Assembly (NCBI GenBank): GCA_021812985.1
Contig: JAKAMG010000024.1
Span: 1 to 57,917 of the forward strand
Length of the DNA stretch: 57,917 nucleotides
Origin: Bacteroidota bacterium
GTDB taxonomy: Bacteria > Bacteroidota > Ignavibacteria > Kryptoniales > JAKASW01
Direction of reading: 5' to 3'
Position numbers and translations under genes: made by a program. This document shows positions 25,020 through 50,512 of the stretch, one piece after another (positions within the stretch are counted from its first letter, which is position 1; every line of letters starts with the position of its first letter). The notes beneath the pieces are model-generated. The model did not search any database, had not been told where the DNA came from, and worked only from the letters and a program-made list of their open reading frames with translations.

Positions 25020-25052
25020 TCCGATCGACTTTTATTTCGGTATTAGTCCCAA

Positions 25053-25226
25053 GGGGGAGCCAGTCGTGCGGCGTAACCCGTATCGCCAGGCAAGCCTGCT
25101 GATGGCTCTACCCGAGACGTGTTTGTCCCGTTCGCCGCGCCCCGAACGTCGGCTCGCCATGGTGGCATCGGACTCGGGTTATCTCTCTAAGGTCAGGCGT
25201 ACGGGGCACATCGGCTGAACCAGCCG
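25053..25226 (+). ncRNA. candidate structured RNA or leader, unassigned
   Basis: A non-coding gap of 232 bp between phoH and the deacetylase/hydrolase gene is filled with self-complementary segments: GAGCCA/TGGCTC (25057-25062 with 25103-25108) enclosing GGCG/CGCC and CAGG/CCTG as a three-way junction; ACCCGAG/CTCGGGT (25110-25116 with 25173-25179) enclosing GTTCG/CGAAC and GCCA/TGGC; and CGGCTG-AAC-CAGCCG (25212-25226). The two large arms compete for CCC at 25111-25113, allowing switching. No convincing ORF or named riboswitch class is recognised. Strand is assumed from the downstream operon; base pairing by eye cannot separate an RNA from a structured DNA element. Confidence 0.4.
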
Positions 25227-25251
25227 TCATTAATCCAATGAAGAAAATCCT

Positions 25252-28200
25252 ATGATAAGAAGAATTGCATTCGCGTTGCTCACCCTATTGGGTGGTGAAG
25301 TCATGGCCGGGAACAGAGTATTGATAGTGTACGAAGGAAAGGATGTGCGCGGCAACCCCGCGAAGGGAGACGCCCTCCAGCTCTTTCAACTCCTCGGGCA
25401 CTTCGACCTACAAAAGAAGGTGGTCGCGGCAAACGATTACAAGTCCGGTGAATGCAACGGATACGATTATGTTTTCTTCGACGGCTTCACCAGCAACTGC
25501 CAGCCGCCGGACAGGTTTCTGGATGACGCATACAATTTCAAGGGAACGCTGGTCTGGCTCAACACCGGAATAATTGCGCTGAATGCCAGACACAACCTTC
25601 AGGAAAAATATGGCTTCGTGCCCGTCGCATACGACTCCACCCGGGGCTTTGACGCGGTAGTCCCCACCGACAAGGATTTCCGCTTCACGAAGGGCGACGA
25701 CTACCTGACGATCATGAACATAACCGATAGGTCTGAGGTGCATGTACTCGCTAACGCGTACGCTCCGCAGCATGTCGTCTCCCCTTATGCCATCCAGACG
25801 GCCAACCTCTACCTCTTCGGTGATTCGCCGTTCTCTTACATCGGCCCGACAGACAGGTACATCTTCTTCGCCGAGAAGCTGCACGAGATACTGAACCAGG
25901 AGCATCCCGAGTTCCACTCAGCTATGATCCGCATAGAAGATGTCGACCCGACCGAGGATCCGAACAGCATCAGGAAAATTACTGACCTCCTTTACGGGGA
26001 ACATATACCTTTTCTTATCGCTGTCGTCCCGTTTTACGTCGACCCGGCAAACAACGTGAGGATATCCCTGTCGGACAAGCCTGACATGGTGGACGCCCTC
26101 AGATACGCCGAGGAGCACGGTGCGACAATAGTTATGCATGGTGTCACGCACCAATATCACGGCGTCACCGACAACGATTACGAGTTCTGGGATAGCGCGT
26201 TGAACAAGCCTATAGCAAACGACAACGCGGCTTACGTCGAGCAGAAGCTCGAGACCGGTGTGGAAGAGCTGATGCGAAACGGAGTATATCCGCTTGCCTG
26301 GGAGACACCTCACTACGGCGCCTCAGAGATCGATTACGCCGCAATCGCCAAGGTCTTCTCCACTGCGGTCGAGGAAAGAATTGTGATGGATGACCTCGAC
26401 TACAGTCAGGATTTTCCTTACGTGATTCAGAAGGATATGTACGGTGAAAAAATTATCCCCGAGAACGTTGGATATGTTCCGCTCGGGACCCCGGAGGAAG
26501 AAGAGAAGGCGGTTCGGGACATTATAGCTGCGGCGAAGGCAAACCTGTACGTCCGCGACGGCTATGCGACGGCTTTCTTCCATCCATTCATGCCGATACA
26601 TCTCCTGAAAGAGATCGTCGATGGCATAAGTGATCTCGGCTATACTTTCGTGAGTCTGAGGGACAGCAGCAACATAGTCCGTCTTCCCGACAGGGTTATA
26701 ATATCAGGGAAGGAATCTTTTAAGATTTCCATAGAAGATCAGTATCTAAAGGAGGTCTACCTGAACGAAAAGGGGGAAAGGGACAAGCGAGACGTCTCGT
26801 CCGATCGGATTACCGGAGTAATCTCGCGTAATATTGATTTGAAACCGGGCTGGATATACGCGGCAGAGCCGGTCGAGTATAAGGAAAAAGAGCTGACTTT
26901 TTTTGACAGGGTGGTGATTGCGCTGGAGAATTTGTGGAAGCGGATATTCCCGGAGAAGAAAAAGGTGACCCCCGCATCGGCGGGTATTCTTTGGGACTCC
27001 ACCGCAACCGGTGGTGCGAAGCTGGACGAGGAAAGCTTCGCGTCCGCGCTCAATAGCGTCGGGATTCCGACGGACACACTTGCCCCGGGCAATCTCAGCA
27101 GCCTTAGCTCATACAACTTGATCATTGTGCCTTACGGCGTGGCGGACAGCCTTCCCGACTCGTTATATGAAGTCCTCGAGAAATTCGTAACGGGAGGAGG
27201 GAAGCTTATCACCGATTCAAAGAACCCCCTCGCAGTCGACATGGGAGTGAAATTTAGTCAGAACGTCATGCGCCTCGAGAAGGTTAGGGACAGGCTCTTC
27301 CCCGAGGAGCTAATGAGTTGGGGGACTTTTGAGACCGTGCACAGGATAGACGTGCAGGAGAAAGACAGGATAATCTGTACAAACGATCTGAACGACGCGC
27401 CAGTTGCGATAGCGCGCGCTTACGGTAAGGGGAAGTTTATCGTGCTGAGCGCCCGATTCGATCCGGTCACGAGCGGAGGCTATTCAAGGTTTCCGTATCT
27501 CATAGAGTGGATCAAGAACTACCTCGAGCTCTATCCCGCACTGAGGCGCGATGCTCTCGAGATGTACTTCGATCCAGGACTCCGCAGGAATATAAGCATA
27601 GAGACCCTCGTGAAGGAATGGGCGAACAGGGGCATAAGGTCGATTCATGTCGCAGGCTGGCATGAGTATCCAAAATTCACGTACGACTATGACAGGCTCA
27701 TCAGGCTCTGTCACGCGTATGGAATAACCGTCTACGTCTGGTTGGAGCCTCCGCAAGTGAGCAAGAAATTTTATGACGATCACCCTCAATGGCACGAGAA
27801 GAACTATAAGGGTGAGGACGTCCGACCGGATTGGCGATATCCTGTTGCCCTTACAGATACTGCTTGTATGCGTGCTGTCTCCGATTGGACATATAACTTC
27901 CTCACTTCGCACGATTGGGACGGCGTGAACATCGGAGAGTTGAGTTTCGGAGGCGATGGCGCCCCGGCCGATCCAAGCACCCTGACACCGTTCGATCAGA
28001 GCGCCAGGATGCTCTTCAAGAGAAAATTCGGATTTGATCCGGTTCAGCTTTTTCAGCAGAGTTCCCCTCATTATTACAAGACTTCACCGCAGGATTGGCA
28101 CAACTTCGTAGACTTCCGGGTCTCTCTTATAACAGGATTTACTTCGCGGTTCCTCAGTATCGCGGAAGACGCCTTCCGGAACAAGCCGGGTGCCCGCGTC

Positions 28201-29178
28201 ATACTGACAGTCTATGACGAAAAGACCTTCCCTTCTCTGAGGTCCTCCATAGGCGTCGATATGGATCAGATACTCCAGCTGAGACAGAAGTATAACTTTG
28301 TCCTGGACGTTGAGGACCCCGCGATAAACTGGAACTCCGATCCGCGCAGGTACATCGCGATGGGAAACACCTACCGCCAGCTCCTTGGCCCGGACTCCTC
28401 CGATTTTATGTTGGATCTGAACATACTTGATTTCAGGCAGCATAAATATAATGGGGTTTTCCCGACTACCACCCCAACCGGTTTGGAGAGTTACCTGTTG
28501 GTTAACTCAGCGGCGCAGTCTGCTCCACGGACAGTTATATACTCCGAAGCCACCGCGTATCCTCAAGATATAGCTGAATTTGCCTACGCCTCGGCTCCTC
28601 AGGCTGATCTTGAACTTAACGGCAACGGCTACAGTGTGAACGCTCCCTACGCCACATCCCTGAGGCTGAGCGACGACGTGGGCGAACTCTCCATTGACGG
28701 GAAGACGGCCTATCCATACCGGCCGGGGACTTTCCTGATACCGGCGGGGACACACTCAATCAAAATTATTAAGACCAACGTCGACCCATTTGAAAGCGGC
28801 TTAATGCAGTCGCATATCGAGGCCGCGTCTTGCAACATACTCGGCGAGCGGACTTTTGAACGCGGCGTCGAGTTTACCTACAGTTCTGCCGGAAGATGCG
28901 CTGTCTCCTTCGGAAAGATTCCGTACGAGGTCCTTGTCGACGACCACGAATATAATTTCACTGTGGCGAGGGAGGAACAGCACTACGGAATCATCCTTCC
29001 CCCCGGACAGCATAAAGTGCTCGTTGTACTCGAGAGCACGGTTTCGTACGGCATAGACCTGACAAGCCTCTGGTCGTCGGCGTTAATCGCCATATTCGGC
29101 TCCATTGCGGGAGGGATCCTCCTGGTCCTCTACTTCATACTCAAGGTCAGAAGAAAAAGGGCGGTAGCACATGTTTGA
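25252..29178 (+). CDS. membrane-anchored DUF2334 deacetylase plus glycoside-hydrolase-like protein
   Basis: 1308 residues, probably the periplasmic modifying enzyme of an exopolysaccharide system. Order: signal peptide (1-20), a Rossmann-like N-terminal domain (20-200), a DUF2334 polysaccharide-deacetylase domain (about 220-475) with RIEDVDP (227-233), HGVTHQYH (296-303), ETPHYG (351-356) and FFHPFM (442-447), a ThuA/glutamine-amidotransferase-like domain (577-750), a TIM-barrel hydrolase-like domain (about 765-1075, with DWDGVNIGE at 888-896), a beta-rich region, and one C-terminal membrane span (1273-1297) followed by basic residues. The combination of deacetylase and hydrolase recalls PgaB of the PNAG system by layout, not by evident homology. 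It overlaps the glycosyltransferase gene by 8 nt. Substrate unknown. Confidence 0.8.
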   Translation: MIRRIAFALLTLLGGEVMAGNRVLIVYEGKDVRGNPAKGDALQLFQLLGHFDLQKKVVAANDYKSGECNGYDYVFFDGFTSNCQPPDRFLDDAYNFKGTLVWLNTGIIALNARHNLQEKYGFVPVAYDSTRGFDAVVPTDKDFRFTKGDDYLTIMNITDRSEVHVLANAYAPQHVVSPYAIQTANLYLFGDSPFSYIGPTDRYIFFAEKLHEILNQEHPEFHSAMIRIEDVDPTEDPNSIRKITDLLYGEHIPFLIAVVPFYVDPANNVRISLSDKPDMVDALRYAEEHGATIVMHGVTHQYHGVTDNDYEFWDSALNKPIANDNAAYVEQKLETGVEELMRNGVYPLAWETPHYGASEIDYAAIAKVFSTAVEERIVMDDLDYSQDFPYVIQKDMYGEKIIPENVGYVPLGTPEEEEKAVRDIIAAAKANLYVRDGYATAFFHPFMPIHLLKEIVDGISDLGYTFVSLRDSSNIVRLPDRVIISGKESFKISIEDQYLKEVYLNEKGERDKRDVSSDRITGVISRNIDLKPGWIYAAEPVEYKEKELTFFDRVVIALENLWKRIFPEKKKVTPASAGILWDSTATGGAKLDEESFASALNSVGIPTDTLAPGNLSSLSSYNLIIVPYGVADSLPDSLYEVLEKFVTGGGKLITDSKNPLAVDMGVKFSQNVMRLEKVRDRLFPEELMSWGTFETVHRIDVQEKDRIICTNDLNDAPVAIARAYGKGKFIVLSARFDPVTSGGYSRFPYLIEWIKNYLELYPALRRDALEMYFDPGLRRNISIETLVKEWANRGIRSIHVAGWHEYPKFTYDYDRLIRLCHAYGITVYVWLEPPQVSKKFYDDHPQWHEKNYKGEDVRPDWRYPVALTDTACMRAVSDWTYNFLTSHDWDGVNIGELSFGGDGAPADPSTLTPFDQSARMLFKRKFGFDPVQLFQQSSPHYYKTSPQDWHNFVDFRVSLITGFTSRFLSIAEDAFRNKPGARVILTVYDEKTFPSLRSSIGVDMDQILQLRQKYNFVLDVEDPAINWNSDPRRYIAMGNTYRQLLGPDSSDFMLDLNILDFRQHKYNGVFPTTTPTGLESYLLVNSAAQSAPRTVIYSEATAYPQDIAEFAYASAPQADLELNGNGYSVNAPYATSLRLSDDVGELSIDGKTAYPYRPGTFLIPAGTHSIKIIKTNVDPFESGLMQSHIEAASCNILGERTFERGVEFTYSSAGRCAVSFGKIPYEVLVDDHEYNFTVAREEQHYGIILPPGQHKVLVVLESTVSYGIDLTSLWSSALIAIFGSIAGGILLVLYFILKVRRKRAVAHV

Positions 29179-30460
29179 TTTCTTCACAACCCTCCTCGGG
29201 GCGCTCTTCGTCCTGTCCGTCATCTTCATTTGGTTTATGATCGCGTACCAGCTTGTCCTTACAACGGCGGGATTCGTCCATAACTGGAATTCGGCAAAAG
29301 AGAAGAAGGCGATCGATAACCTCACGCATTTTGAAAATCCTCGCGTCTGCGTCCTCATTCCCGCGCACAACGAGGAAAAGGTTATCAGGCGAACTCTGGA
29401 AGCGATGCTGAAGTTCGATTACCCGAAGGAAAAACTCGAGATACTCGTCATCAACGACGGCTCGTCGGACAGGACCGGCGAGATAGTGGAAGAGATTTCA
29501 AGGGGGGACAAAAGGGTCCGATGTTACAACGTGCCGAAGGGCGAGGGGGGGAAGGGGAAATCTAGAGCCCTGAACCTAGGACTTAGACAGACCGATGCCG
29601 AGGTGATTGCTGTCTACGACGCGGACAACCAGCCTCTCCCCGACGCGCTGAAGTATCTTGTCGCTGAGCTTCTTCTCCATCCCGACCTCGGGGCGGTTCT
29701 AGGAAACTTCCGAACCATCAACAAGGACCGGACCTGGCTGACGAGGTTCGTGAGCATAGAAACGCTCAGCTTTCAGGCTATACTTCAGGCGGGCAGGTGG
29801 GCCTTGTTCAAGGTCTCGACTCTGCCTGGTACGAACTTCGTAATCTGGAAACATCTCCTCGACGACCTTAAAGGCTGGGACGAAGACGCGATCACTGAGG
29901 ATTCTGAGCTGAGCATCAGAGTCTACATGAAGGGGTACAAGATAAAATACATCCCGTTCGCCGTTACGCTCGAACAGGAACCCGAGACGCTGTCAGTGTG
30001 GACCAAGCAAAGGACGAGATGGGTCCGGGGAAATAACTACGTCGTGACTAAGTTCGTCCGCGAGATACCGCAGTTCCAAAATAAGTTCCTTGCCTTCGAG
30101 GTGCTTTATCTCCTGTCGCTCTACTATATCTTCCTTTTCGCGATAGGAGTAAGCGACCTAATTTTTATACTAAGCATAACCCATGTCGTTGCGATCCCTC
30201 TCCCCGGTCCTTACACTACCGTATGGGGTCTCGCAGTAGTCCTTTTTATACTGGAGATTATTCTCGTCCTCTCTTACGAAGGGCAGGACACATTCAAAAA
30301 TCTCCTTCTCGTCTTCCTAATGTACTTCACATACTGCCAGTTCTGGATATATGTCGTCGGAAGGGGAATCTATCTCGATTACATAAAGCGCGAGAAGCGC
30401 ACCTGGGCCAAGACAGTGAGGTTTGAAGTTGATGACACAATTTGGAAGAGGCTCAAATGA
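29171..30460 (+). CDS. processive family 2 glycosyltransferase (polysaccharide synthase)
   Basis: 429 residues. N-terminal membrane span (6-32), cytoplasmic GT-A domain with VLIPAHNEEKV, Asp96 in NDGSSD, DAD at 150-152, TED at 242-244 and the QxxRW motif (QRTRW, 280-284), then about four C-terminal spans. This pattern is that of processive synthases such as PgaC, NodC, hyaluronan or cellulose synthases; it lacks a PilZ domain, so no built-in c-di-GMP control is visible. The sugar is not predictable. The start overlaps the upstream gene by 8 nt and the stop overlaps the next start (ATGA), so the three products are probably made in fixed ratio. Confidence 0.9.
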   Translation: MFDFFTTLLGALFVLSVIFIWFMIAYQLVLTTAGFVHNWNSAKEKKAIDNLTHFENPRVCVLIPAHNEEKVIRRTLEAMLKFDYPKEKLEILVINDGSSDRTGEIVEEISRGDKRVRCYNVPKGEGGKGKSRALNLGLRQTDAEVIAVYDADNQPLPDALKYLVAELLLHPDLGAVLGNFRTINKDRTWLTRFVSIETLSFQAILQAGRWALFKVSTLPGTNFVIWKHLLDDLKGWDEDAITEDSELSIRVYMKGYKIKYIPFAVTLEQEPETLSVWTKQRTRWVRGNNYVVTKFVREIPQFQNKFLAFEVLYLLSLYYIFLFAIGVSDLIFILSITHVVAIPLPGPYTTVWGLAVVLFILEIILVLSYEGQDTFKNLLLVFLMYFTYCQFWIYVVGRGIYLDYIKREKRTWAKTVRFEVDDTIWKRLK

Positions 30461-31716
30461 AAAGAGTCATATTTGCTCTTATTTTTCTGGCGTCATCGAC
30501 TTCGTTTGCCCAGTTCACTTCCTCGATTCAGGCAGGTTACACTCATGACTCCAATGTGTTCGGAAATTTCGCGGAGGTGCCGGACAACTACCTTTCCATG
30601 AACCTCAGTCTCGAAAACTATATCGGCTGGGACTACTCAGCCTTCGATCTCTCATACAATGGAGGACTTTCGAGCTACAACGAATATCCTGCTCAGGACA
30701 GCTGGAACCACCTCCTGGAGGCAAATTACAGGATACAGCTCAGCAGGATTGCGGATGACGACGACACTTCGGAAACAACTTCCATGTCGGAGACAATGCC
30801 GGCCGATTCGCTGGAGACTTTCCTGACACTTTACGGAACCCTCAACAGGGCATTGCCCCATTCCGGCGACTTTTTGGCCTACGCCAATTACAATGCCGTT
30901 GGAACAGCAAGTTTTCGCTTCACTGCCGCTCAAGCTCTGATTACTCATCTCTATTATACGGTAAACTACACCGGATATGACGAGCTGACCTCTCTTTCCA
31001 ATATTGAAAACTTAGGGAGGGTCGTTGTCGGCATATTGCCCTCAAATGATGTCTACATTTATTTGGACGGATCGGTGGGCACGAAGAGATATTATGGTGT
31101 AGACACCGTGAGTACTGCGGTCAAGAATCTGATCAACATGCACTCGAAAGGGGTGCTGAAGGGAAAGGGAAGAGGGGGGAGCCAGTCTTCGCAAGGAGTC
31201 AGGAGCTACGTCCTGGATTCACCTTCCGCGTCCCAGGCCACCTACGGAGCGGGTGTGAATTACTCGGCGGGTCAGTGGGGCGCTGATGCGAGTCTCCTCT
31301 TCAGGAAGAATCTTTCAGGCACGGCGAGGTATATCAATGCCGTCGCCAAATTTGCCGGCGGTCAGTCACAGGTGTATGACGACCCATATTCCTACCACGG
31401 GACACAGTTCAACATTGGAGCTAGCAGGGACTCTCTTGTTGCAGGGATCAATGTCTCCGCCGGATTCATGCTTGCGACAAAAGACTACAGCAGACCGGCG
31501 TTAGACACTAGCGAGACTGTCGTTCTCGCCAAACAGAGGAGAGACAACTATTCCGATTTGTCGCTGGCACTTTCGCGAAGCTTTTCATCTGGAGGTTTTC
31601 CGGCGGGGTATACGATCGGGCTGAACTACGATCATGTCGTGAATTCGTCGAACGACGAGTTCTACAATTTTACTGACGACGTCGTTTCCCTTTTTATAAC
31701 TGTGAATCTGTTCTGA
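30457..31716 (+). CDS. outer-membrane beta-barrel of the exopolysaccharide locus
   Basis: 419 residues with signal peptide MKRVIFALIFLASSTSFAQ and alternating beta strands throughout (for example SIQAGYTHDSNVFGNF), ending VSLFITVNLF with a terminal Phe, as in barrels inserted by BamA. The ATG at 30457 overlaps the synthase stop by 4 nt and has AGAGG 5 nt upstream; an in-frame TTG at 30442 is less likely. No TPR or AlgE/PgaA similarity is apparent. By position it is the candidate export pore or surface anchor for the polymer. Confidence 0.75.
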   Translation: MKRVIFALIFLASSTSFAQFTSSIQAGYTHDSNVFGNFAEVPDNYLSMNLSLENYIGWDYSAFDLSYNGGLSSYNEYPAQDSWNHLLEANYRIQLSRIADDDDTSETTSMSETMPADSLETFLTLYGTLNRALPHSGDFLAYANYNAVGTASFRFTAAQALITHLYYTVNYTGYDELTSLSNIENLGRVVVGILPSNDVYIYLDGSVGTKRYYGVDTVSTAVKNLINMHSKGVLKGKGRGGSQSSQGVRSYVLDSPSASQATYGAGVNYSAGQWGADASLLFRKNLSGTARYINAVAKFAGGQSQVYDDPYSYHGTQFNIGASRDSLVAGINVSAGFMLATKDYSRPALDTSETVVLAKQRRDNYSDLSLALSRSFSSGGFPAGYTIGLNYDHVVNSSNDEFYNFTDDVVSLFITVNLF

Positions 31717-47317: not shown

Positions 47318-47611
47318 ATGATTGCGGTTGTCACATCGGCTCTATTGATGTTCGGATCTGGCAAGGGGGATACTCTGAGTACAGTCGGGCTCGCGGGCGA
47401 ATTTCAAAGATTTTACTACCCACCAGCGATCATCCTAACACAGCCAGCCGGGACTGCGATGCCCGGCGACATTGTACCGCTCATATTTCCGGGATACTAT
47501 TATAAAGGCGATGGCAGGGAAAGGTTCGGCAAAGGTCACGATGAAGGTGGAAGAAAGGACGCCTCAGGTGAGATTAAGCGTTCAAAGGAAGACCGGCGTC
47601 AAAAAAAATGA
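47318..47611 (+). CDS. possible small exported protein
   Basis: A 97-residue frame with a short hydrophobic start (MIAVVTSALLMF), an aromatic/proline stretch (FYYPPAIILTQP) and a strongly charged C-terminus. GAGG is 10 nt upstream. It ends 10 nt before the tyrosine-rich lipoprotein. No family recognised; codon use is plausible but the frame could be spurious. Confidence 0.4.
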   Translation: MIAVVTSALLMFGSGKGDTLSTVGLAGEFQRFYYPPAIILTQPAGTAMPGDIVPLIFPGYYYKGDGRERFGKGHDEGGRKDASGEIKRSKEDRRQKK

Positions 47612-47621
47612 GGTGAGTGTC

Positions 47622-48917
47622 ATGAAGACTAAATTAGCTGTTTCGGCATTGGCTCTCGTGGTTTCGTTGAGCGTGGCCGGCTGTTATACCGAGTTTGCCA
47701 CCACGGGAGGCAACTATGGCGGTTATGGCAGCTCCTACGGCTCGGGGTACTACACGAGCGCTGATTCCGGGTACGCATACGACACAACCTCAGCGCCCGT
47801 CGTGAACAATTACATCAGCAACTACTACGGCACGGACTACAGCTACCCCTACTACGGCGGGAGCCTATATTACCAAAACATGTTTGTACCGGATATGGGA
47901 TGGTGGAACACCGATAGCTGGATGTTTGGAATCGGCATCGGGGGATGGTACGGCAGCTATCCCTACTACGGTGGCTATGCCTACGGCGGTTATTCAATGT
48001 GGCCTTACGGTTATAGCCCGTACTACAATTACTATTCACCGTACAGTTACTACGGCAGCCCGCTTTACTCTTCATACTATCCTTACTATACGCCGTGGTG
48101 GCCTTACTCCTATTATTCCAACTCATCCGGTTTGAGCGCAAGGACGAGGAACAGCGGAGACACGCGTTACGGCAGAGAAGGTTACGGCGGAGGAGGTGTC
48201 GCCCCTCAGCAGGCCGTCGGTACGACTGAGACCGGAAGAGCTTACGGCACGACTGGCGGCGCTTCGAGCGGCCAGGCAACCCCGTCCGTTAGGACCCGCG
48301 CAGGTGATACAGGAAATCCCGGTACAGTGGGTGCTGGAAACGCCGTCGATCAGTCGAGGGTCAGAGTGCGCGGGTCTGAAAGCAGCGCTCCGCCTCAGCA
48401 GTCGTCATACCCGACCCCCAATTCTCAGCCCTCCAATCCACAGCCGAGAGTGAGGGAGCGCGCGCCGAGCTCGCCGCCCCCGCAGCAGAATCCGAATCAG
48501 CAGCCTCAGTCCAATCCTGAACCACGCGTACGCGAGAGTGCACCGAGCTACAATCCGCCTCCACAGCAGAATCCGGCTCCGAGTTACAATCCTCCGCCAC
48601 AGCAGAGTCCAGCTCCGAGCAGTCCGCCTCCGCAGCAGGCCCCTGCTCCGAGAGTGAGGCACGGCAGCGTATCATACGAGGGCGTTTATCAAAGATATGC
48701 CGTTGCCCGCGCTTACGAGTCTATGAGGGAGAGAACAGGGTTCGCGAGGCCTGCGGTTTCAGGCCAAAACTATGGAATGCCGGGATATCAGGAGAGCGCG
48801 CCGAGATATGAATTTCGTGGCGCGCCCTCGTTCGCGAGATCTGAGGAAAGAGTGGCAACACCGGCCGTGAACGAGAGTGGTTCACGTCAGTCGAGCGGAG
48901 GCAGGACCCGTCACTGA
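47622..48917 (+). CDS. tyrosine-rich lipoprotein with Pro/Gln repeats
   Basis: 431 residues. Signal peptide with lipobox SVAGC (Cys21), then about 150 residues dominated by Tyr, Gly, Ser, Trp and Pro (YYGGSLYYQN, YNYYSPYSYYG), a Gly/Ala/Thr linker, a Pro/Gln repeat region (APSYNPPPQQ units) and a basic tail. Low-complexity aromatic sequence of this type tends to self-associate. ATG at 47622 with GAGGTG 6 nt upstream is preferred; the frame stays open farther upstream but would remove the signal peptide. Function unknown; perhaps a surface matrix or adhesive protein. Confidence 0.78.
   Translation: MKTKLAVSALALVVSLSVAGCYTEFATTGGNYGGYGSSYGSGYYTSADSGYAYDTTSAPVVNNYISNYYGTDYSYPYYGGSLYYQNMFVPDMGWWNTDSWMFGIGIGGWYGSYPYYGGYAYGGYSMWPYGYSPYYNYYSPYSYYGSPLYSSYYPYYTPWWPYSYYSNSSGLSARTRNSGDTRYGREGYGGGGVAPQQAVGTTETGRAYGTTGGASSGQATPSVRTRAGDTGNPGTVGAGNAVDQSRVRVRGSESSAPPQQSSYPTPNSQPSNPQPRVRERAPSSPPPQQNPNQQPQSNPEPRVRESAPSYNPPPQQNPAPSYNPPPQQSPAPSSPPPQQAPAPRVRHGSVSYEGVYQRYAVARAYESMRERTGFARPAVSGQNYGMPGYQESAPRYEFRGAPSFARSEERVATPAVNESGSRQSSGGRTRH
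48541..48660 (+). repeat. imperfect tandem repeats within the tyrosine-rich lipoprotein gene
   Basis: Three imperfect units of about 33-36 bp encode APSYNPPPQQNP, APSYNPPPQQSP and APSSPPPQQAP; shorter related pieces (RVRExAPS) precede them. Such repeats can change in number by slippage. Confidence 0.7.
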
Positions 48918-49018
48918 TACTGCTTCCGGGTGTTCATCTAGTGGGGCGGCCCCCGCGCGGCACTTTGATTTCTTATTTTTGCCCCGACTGTGTTGTTACT
49001 TAATTGAACGGTAAGAGT

Positions 49019-50512
49019 ATGAATCGCAGAATTCTCTATTCAATATCCCTTCTTCTCCTATTCACAATTAGCGCGTACGCGCAATATCCCGAGGATGCGC
49101 TGCGGCTCGGCGAGAGCAGCTACGGCATGAGCGCGCGCTCCGTATCTATGGGAAATGCGATGACAGGCCTGGCGCAGGGCTACGACGCGGTCCTCTATAA
49201 CCCTGCCGGTCTTGCACAGTCTCGCCAATCGGAATTCTCTTTCGGCCTGAATTTTCTGGGGAACAACAACGATGCGTCGTATCTCGGGAGCAGCAATTCG
49301 CTCTCAAGGTCACAGACCGACATAACGAACGTCGGCATTGTTTATCCCTTCCCGACGCTGAAGGGGAGCTTTGTCGTCGCGTTCGGATACAACAGAGGCG
49401 CGGATTTCAATTCGGCACTTTCCGTCAAGGGGACAAACAGGAACAGCTCTATCATACCTTCCCTGTATTATCCAGGCGACACGCTCGCGGACATTTCTTA
49501 CATGGTTTTCCTTGAGGACGCGAGTCAGAATCCGCTCGTGACCAAGGACGTCTACCAGAGTGGTCAGACATTCAGGTCAGGCGGCCTGAACAATTGGCTG
49601 GCATCGGCGGCAATCGACGTCGCACAGGATTTTTCGCTGGGGTTAACGCTCAATCTTATTAGCGGTTCCTATCAGTACAACAGGACGTTTACGGAGAGCG
49701 CGATATCCGGAGGCGTCTACGGTGATCCGACATTCAGCCAGTTTGTCCTCAGCGACCAGGATAACCAGGACATAACAGGCTGGAACGCGAAGTTTGGTTT
49801 CCTATATCGGATGAGAGACGAGAGCGGGAACGTGATCGCGAGAGTCGGAGCCGCTATAAACTTCCCGTCATACATGACCATCACTGACAATTATTCGTCG
49901 CAGGGCACTGCCACGTTTACTGCTGGAGGTAATCCTGCGCCTTATTCCACTTCGAACGGCTACGGCGAATCGGAGTCAGGTTATCCTGGGCCGGCGCTCC
50001 AGTACGATGTCACTACTCCTTTCAAGTTCTCGGTCGGTGTATCGGGCGGTTCACAGCGAATACTTACATCGGCGGACATCGAGTACACTGACTGGACGCA
50101 GCTAGATTTCAGTAATTCCAATCTTCCTGCATCTGTGATCAGCAATTTGAACTCCCAAGTAAAACAATCGTTTACGTCCACGACCAACTTTAGAGCGGGG
50201 TTGGAGATTGCGCTGGCAAATCCGAACTACTCGCTGACTGTCCCGTACGTCAGGGTTGGTGGAAGCTATCTCCCGTCACCGTATGCCAACGATAAAGCTG
50301 CCCAGGCGCAGAAGTTCCTCAGCGGCGGCCTCGGCTTCCGCATCCAAAACAGCATAGTCGTCGACCTCGCTTACCAGTACGGGTGGTGGGAGACAAGCAG
50401 TCTGGTCTATCCGGGGACGACCATAAACAATGTGAGCTATATCGGACAGAGCACGAGCAATGAGAAGGTCACGAACACGAACTTTCTATTCTCGTTCAAA
50501 TATGATTTCTGA
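49019..50512 (+). CDS. OmpP1/FadL/TodX family outer-membrane transporter
   Basis: 497 residues. Signal peptide ending AYA; after it the family N-terminus SARSVSMGNAMTGLAQGYDAVLYNPAGLAQ, with the NPAGL motif. Many beta strands and C-terminal KYDF. FadL-type barrels carry hydrophobic molecules such as fatty acids or aromatics inward. ATG at 49019 is chosen; a TTG at 49004 is in frame. No convincing ribosome site for either. Followed by a smaller barrel gene after 8 nt. Confidence 0.82.
   Translation: MNRRILYSISLLLLFTISAYAQYPEDALRLGESSYGMSARSVSMGNAMTGLAQGYDAVLYNPAGLAQSRQSEFSFGLNFLGNNNDASYLGSSNSLSRSQTDITNVGIVYPFPTLKGSFVVAFGYNRGADFNSALSVKGTNRNSSIIPSLYYPGDTLADISYMVFLEDASQNPLVTKDVYQSGQTFRSGGLNNWLASAAIDVAQDFSLGLTLNLISGSYQYNRTFTESAISGGVYGDPTFSQFVLSDQDNQDITGWNAKFGFLYRMRDESGNVIARVGAAINFPSYMTITDNYSSQGTATFTAGGNPAPYSTSNGYGESESGYPGPALQYDVTTPFKFSVGVSGGSQRILTSADIEYTDWTQLDFSNSNLPASVISNLNSQVKQSFTSTTNFRAGLEIALANPNYSLTVPYVRVGGSYLPSPYANDKAAQAQKFLSGGLGFRIQNSIVVDLAYQYGWWETSSLVYPGTTINNVSYIGQSTSNEKVTNTNFLFSFKYDF

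Follow-up and report, generated by a model that had tools for sequence, protein, structure and literature searches.

A three-gene locus in a 3.5 Mb, 99% complete genome of a Bacteroidota lineage encodes a variant of the known synthase-dependent exopolysaccharide systems, new in that intact PssB-like deacetylase motifs are fused to a PgaB-like hydrolase fold in a single polypeptide. The system is Pga-like in layout and Pss-like in its synthase, and belongs to neither group as defined. An exopolysaccharide function is very likely from what is known of the protein families involved, and a diderm Pss-type system, probably polymerizing ManNAc, is on balance the best explanation of the locus.

Locus Organization

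The window, i.e., the whole stretch of 57,917 nucleotides that was analyzed, contains three genes that make up the locus:

25252..29178, plus strand: putative membrane-anchored polymer-modifying enzyme of 1308 aa, PssB/PgaB-like fusion (52 of the 245 class genomes encode homologues)
29171..30460, plus strand: processive GT2 synthase, PssC-like, 429 aa (motifs and Pfam)
30457..31716, plus strand: outer-membrane beta-barrel-like protein, 419 aa, with a signal peptide and without TPR; facultative third gene

The open reading frames and overlaps are as originally predicted: the gene for the 1308-aa protein overlaps the GT2 gene by 8 nt, and the barrel gene overlaps the GT2 stop codon in an ATGA when read from ATG 30457. 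This start, which yields a 419-aa protein with a signal peptide, is preferred over the TTG at 30442 of the mechanical open reading frame, and the relatives also begin at the ATG site. Across genera, identity is 40–82% for the 1308-aa protein, about 58–90% for the GT2 and 17–64% for the barrel; this conservation of the frames makes the three-gene observation more than chance. The locus is a real, conserved and probably functional system. Upstream, positions 25020–25251 are intergenic, downstream of phoH; phoH and a 254-aa gene were excluded as parts of the system because they adjoin the pair of large-protein and synthase genes only inside the genus. Elsewhere in the window, two adjacent genes (47472–48917 and 49004–50512) encode proteins of 481 and 502 aa with zero Pfam matches at 1e-5.

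Architecture of the 1308-Residue Protein

The large protein was modeled as two halves, using alignments of 40 and 38 relatives, with a mean pLDDT of 90 for each half. Its predicted features, all on the plus strand, are:

25252..25308, plus strand: signal peptide, residues 1–19, MIRRIAFALLTLLGGEVMA (inspection of the sequence)
25309..25866, plus strand: N-terminal amidotransferase/GH42-like alpha-beta module, about residues 20–205 (model, pLDDT 90)
25921..26625, plus strand: DUF2334 deacetylase domain, residues 224–458 (PF10096, E 3e-50; CE4 fold; conservation)
26980..27486, plus strand: second amidotransferase/GH42-like module, about residues 577–745 (PF08532; model; PDB profile match)
27547..28590, plus strand: TIM-barrel hydrolase-like domain, residues 766–1113 (VIA; conservation)
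28591..29037, plus strand: C-terminal beta domain, about residues 1114–1262 (secondary structure of the model)
29065..29151, plus strand: single C-terminal membrane span, residues 1272–1300 (hydropathy)

The DUF2334 domain is modeled with a CE4-type fold (Z 19.1, rmsd 2.4 over 211 residues to 3rxz; CE4 matches in general at Z 16–19). Six CE4-type motif residues are invariant in all 47 homologues, namely D230 (in RIED), H296 and H300 (in HGxTHQY), E351 and H354 (in WETPHY), and H444; D230, H296, H300 and H444 supply the Asp and two His of the metal triad and the catalytic His that CE4 enzymes require. Fold and motifs make it likely that this domain acts as a deacetylase. A literature search on DUF2334 in exopolysaccharide work found nothing, and a Rubrivivax paper returned by keyword was set aside, as the cluster described there is unrelated. 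NDST1, the top Foldseek match for the N-terminal half, was likewise rejected as a specific relative (TM 0.35, rmsd 10.5), and single-sequence PDB matches of the full protein were discarded as noise.

Two modules flanking the deacetylase resemble amidotransferases, where the original prediction had a single such domain; its DUF2334 domain, TIM barrel and C-terminal span were all recovered. By structure comparison of the model, the N-terminal module matches a GH42 domain and glutaminases with Z of about 14–15. The second, with a PF08532 match in 35 of 38 homologues, resembles the GH42 middle domain and has a PDB profile match to GH42 beta-galactosidase. Since no cysteine is invariant in the alignment of homologues, both modules are unlikely to be working amidotransferases, and the N-terminal one is probably not catalytic.

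In VIA comparisons, the TIM barrel scores highest against the C-terminal hydrolase domain of PgaB from E. coli (Z 25.5 over 315 residues, rmsd 3.8) and its counterpart in Bordetella PgaB, or BpsB (Z 24.6), with GH42 folds tying with PgaB at Z 24.6; a Foldseek search with the C-terminal half places the PelA structure second. An hhalign profile comparison of the TIM-barrel protein with PgaB found no sequence homology. The modeled barrel has its fold in common with PgaB, and a shared chemistry is plausible, with homology unsupported by sequence profiles. Five acidic residues of the TIM barrel are invariant among 47 homologues. By strand count in the model, E896 is positioned where strand 4 ends, and D989, D1022, D1055 and E1099 are positioned where other strands end. 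In GH-A enzymes, the acid/base sits at the end of strand 4. We consider hydrolase activity somewhat probable for this modeled domain. In Bordetella PgaB, D474 is critical and corresponds in alignment to the catalytic aspartate of DspB (PMC5933820).

A conserved (S)YGIDLTSLWSS motif precedes the C-terminal span, and a basic tail comes after it. Few regions of the protein are as well conserved as this span, with T1271, S1275, I1279 and F1282 invariant in 47/47. Such strong conservation suggests a membrane protein partner, for which the synthase is the obvious candidate. The hydrolase half of the large protein also exists alone: five genomes (G281, G327, G245, G285 and G319; loci L118–L122) encode secreted stand-alone proteins of about 730–780 aa, 30% identical to residues 573–1265, with no synthase linkage.

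The GT2 Synthase

The second gene has a GT2 Pfam match (E 7.6e-32), about 4–5 membrane spans, and the motifs D96, D150xD152, TED244 and QRTRW284. Of the characterized enzymes compared, Listeria PssC is the nearest, at 44% identity over 414 aa (355 bits), followed by E. coli PgaC (28%, 114 bits) and BcsA (27%, 86 bits); BLAST of the window GT2 against E. coli NfrB gave no match. These comparisons rest on pairwise identities, as branches in the GT2 tree are long and open. The best NCBIfam model is PgaC_IcaA, whose 170.7 bits fall far under the cut-off of 422.3, and the NodC and cellulose synthase models also match.

A Conserved Pair with a Facultative Outer-Membrane Partner

We surveyed 245 genomes of the class, scoring the synthase at E < 1e-60. 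The large protein is present in 52 genomes and the synthase in 50, every one of them inside those 52 (Fisher p 3e-50, before allowing for phylogeny). In 50/50 genomes their genes lie side by side in the same orientation; the gap between them rarely exceeds about 200 nt, and in one case it reaches 910 nt. Among 395 sampled genomes of the phylum, the fused architecture occurs 14 times, always within the same class. In three loci of one family (L094–L096), genes for a conserved polytopic membrane protein and a DPM-like GT2, both assigned by eye, come next after the pair, and in two of these (L094 and L095) a PMT/ArnT-like gene, also identified by eye, lies nearby on the opposite strand; such neighbors possibly add side sugars.

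The barrel gene behaves differently from the pair. Its product has only a marginal SlipAM match in Pfam, no TPR families were found in it or its 14 relatives, and a sequence search in the PDB returned no matches. A profile built from 15 pair-linked barrels scored over 200 bits, a strong match, in 27 genomes, i.e., 27 of the 52 with the pair and none of the 193 without it (Fisher p 7e-22, before allowing for phylogeny), with about ten of the 27 outside the training set. The gene is usually directly 3' of the synthase, but in several genomes it lies upstream or on the other strand, and it is missing from 25 of the 52. Within the genus of the window, four of 12 pair-positive genomes have an intact adjacent barrel and a fifth has only part of the gene, at the end of a contig, while the gene is decayed in two and absent in five. 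The barrel is therefore a specific yet optional partner, and the core of the system is the pair plus a facultative outer-membrane component. Of the conserved synteny of three genes that had been anticipated, the deacetylase–synthase linkage stood and the barrel as a fixed third member did not; a conserved trio of coupled genes is ruled out by its absence or decay in many relatives. In two species (L027 and L028), decayed barrel remnants directly follow the GT2 gene, with deacetylase and synthase intact, a pattern that reads as ongoing loss of the outer-membrane partner.

Because about half of the pair-positive genomes lack the barrel, its role in export is uncertain, and the odds that the predicted barrel is the polymer exit are only slightly better than even. 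The pair might instead make a glycan that stays in the periplasm or attached to the cell surface without export through the linked barrel, the latter being an accessory outer-membrane protein with another role. The intact pair in the 7/12 genus members with an absent or decayed barrel, and the displaced barrel genes of several genomes, are in keeping with this. We regard it as rather unlikely, given that barrel orthologues were found only with the pair (27/27) and that their start codons usually overlap, or nearly overlap, the preceding gene.

Comparison with Characterized Systems

In Listeria, the Pss cluster (pssA–E) has the order DUF2334–GT2–BcsB–GGDEF, and its pssB–pssC order matches that of the window, where a DUF2334 gene directly precedes a GT2 synthase 44% identical to PssC. 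Unlike the window system, Pss includes the BcsB-like PssD and the c-di-GMP receptor PssE. No BcsB (PF03170) match was found in 13 genomes of the genus, whereas the Listeria neighbor scores 136 bits; similarly, a degenerate-GGDEF c-di-GMP receptor is absent from the neighborhood, the sole GGDEF in the genome being on another contig. The window protein further differs from PssB by its fusion to amidotransferase-like, TIM-barrel and anchor domains, and the locus by the addition of an outer-membrane barrel.

Listeria PssB is itself a weak, motif-depleted DUF2334 match. The HxxxH motif and the C-terminal histidine are missing from PssB (L130:4473–5969) and its likely Enterococcus counterpart (L131:4418–5998), but are kept in the window protein and in the DUF2334 proteins of Comamonadaceae, Burkholderia and Streptomyces. 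By this contrast, Listeria PssB and its Enterococcus counterpart may have lost deacetylase activity, and the four motif-bearing groups probably do deacetylate.

The likeness to Pga lies in layout. Both systems have a processive GT2, an outer-membrane barrel, and a periplasmic protein in which a deacetylase of CE4 fold precedes a TIM barrel. The parallel drawn originally is supported by the CE4 fold and by PgaB hydrolase domains as top structural matches, although the resemblance to the GH153-like barrel of PgaB is one of fold, in which GH42 scores equally. The differences foreseen in deacetylase family, C-terminal span anchor (PgaB is lipoprotein-anchored) and barrel without TPR (PgaA has TPR) also hold. 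In addition, the synthase is only 28% identical to PgaC, the operon has no PgaD, and the window protein carries two extra amidotransferase-like modules. The lack of a PilZ domain, also listed as a difference, is not one, as PgaC is not known to have one either.

A PNAG/Pga-type system, with a poly-beta-1,6-GlcNAc product, the fusion as a divergent PgaB and the barrel as a reduced PgaA, would explain the shared functional layout, the rank of PgaC_IcaA as best NCBIfam model, and PgaB as nearest match to the TIM barrel. We judge it quite improbable: the synthase is much nearer PssC and far below the PgaC_IcaA cut-off, the deacetylase is DUF2334 and not of the PgaB type, PgaD and TPR are missing, and the wecB linkage described below would go unexplained.

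The NGR system (NfrA/NfrB/WecB), the phage N4 glycan receptor, is like the window system a diderm system with a postulated ManNAc polymer (PMC8669472), and a DUF2334 gene accompanies an NfrB-like synthase on a Comamonadaceae plasmid; however, its synthase is unrelated beyond the GT2 fold, it is c-di-GMP-activated, and its NfrA-like protein bears TPR repeats. Pel resembles the window system in that PelA joins hydrolase and deacetylase in one polypeptide, but the locus has no PelF or PelG and its deacetylase is of another family.

No full match to a characterized Pel or PNAG system was found (no PelF/PelG; PgaC_IcaA at 170.7 against 422.3). The system stands outside Pga because the PgaC equivalog score, TPR and PgaD are missing, and outside Pss because BcsB and the c-di-GMP receptor are. 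The statement that no named system has these parts overlooked Listeria pssB–pssC, although the fusion architecture itself occurs in no characterized system examined.

Identity of the Polymer

WecB is a UDP-GlcNAc 2-epimerase that makes UDP-ManNAc. Directly upstream of the pair, 8 of 48 loci, spread over four families, have a wecB gene, and the encoded protein is a true family member (478 bits against a cut-off of 210). Beyond the phylum, the order wecB–GT2–DUF2334 also occurs in Streptomyces, and a PssC-like GT2 lies near wecB in Acinetobacter. The window genome has two wecB genes, and nearly all genomes of the class carry the gene (223 of 245), although one pair-positive genome (G345) has no match at E 1e-40. 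A high-scoring WecB type occurs in 44/52 pair-positive versus 30/193 pair-negative genomes, by a bit-score split set after seeing the data and with phylogeny not controlled.

On a Comamonadaceae plasmid (L127:4806–13752, CP099603.1), wecB stands with an NfrB-like glycosyltransferase 39.5% identical to E. coli NfrB, a small gene, DUF2334, TPR/NfrA_C and DUF4434 genes. From its gene content, this cluster resembles an NGR-type system for a ManNAc glycan, equipped with a deacetylase of its own.

Listeria produces a polymer of beta-1,4-linked ManNAc (PMC6307706), for which PssC and PssE are required (PMC4125290). ManNAc is also the postulated basis of the NGR polymer that NfrB makes in E. coli, owing to the need of that polymer for WecB (PMC8669472). 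A ManNAc-based polymer is moderately likely here as well; the donor sugar is not fixed by 44% synthase identity. The same machinery could make another hexosamine polymer, either one resembling chitin or chitosan or a mixed glycan whose side sugars are lipid-linked, the wecB linkage then reflecting neighboring surface-glycan genes. Processive GT2 motifs are common to different donors, the NodC and cellulose synthase models match the GT2, and DPM-like and PMT-like genes adjoin the pair in L094–L096. Yet the nearest characterized synthase is PssC and wecB is directly adjacent in four families, so that we deem this alternative unlikely.

Proposed Mechanism

For the favored ManNAc system, we infer donor sugar, enzyme activities, complex formation and export as follows. 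(i) Polymerization: a UDP-N-acetylhexosamine, most likely UDP-ManNAc from WecB encoded elsewhere in the genome, would be polymerized by the GT2 synthase, which would also extrude the chain across the inner membrane. (ii) Modification: the 1308-aa protein, held beside the synthase through its C-terminal span, would act on the chain in the periplasm, where the DUF2334 domain would remove some N-acetyl groups to give a cationic polymer and the PgaB-like TIM barrel would trim or bind it. (iii) Exit: the product would leave through the outer-membrane barrel where one is present; in barrel-less genomes, it would have to take another route or stay periplasmic or surface-bound.

Biological Significance

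In several phyla, these observations tie DUF2334 to a specific step, the removal of N-acetyl groups from a probable ManNAc polymer, and make its role testable on single proteins. They also show that diderm bacteria have a Pss-type synthase like the one characterized in Listeria, but with a different partner in the periplasm, in a system that joins Pss and PNAG features. More tentatively, and with the balance somewhat against it, DUF2334 may be a poly-ManNAc de-N-acetylase family, with the single "deacetylate and cut" subunit of this clade, a PssB-type deacetylase joined to a PgaB-like hydrolase, replacing BcsB in the secretion of a ManNAc polymer to form a cationic polymannosamine matrix. If true, polymannosamine would be an additional type of cationic matrix beside PNAG and Pel.
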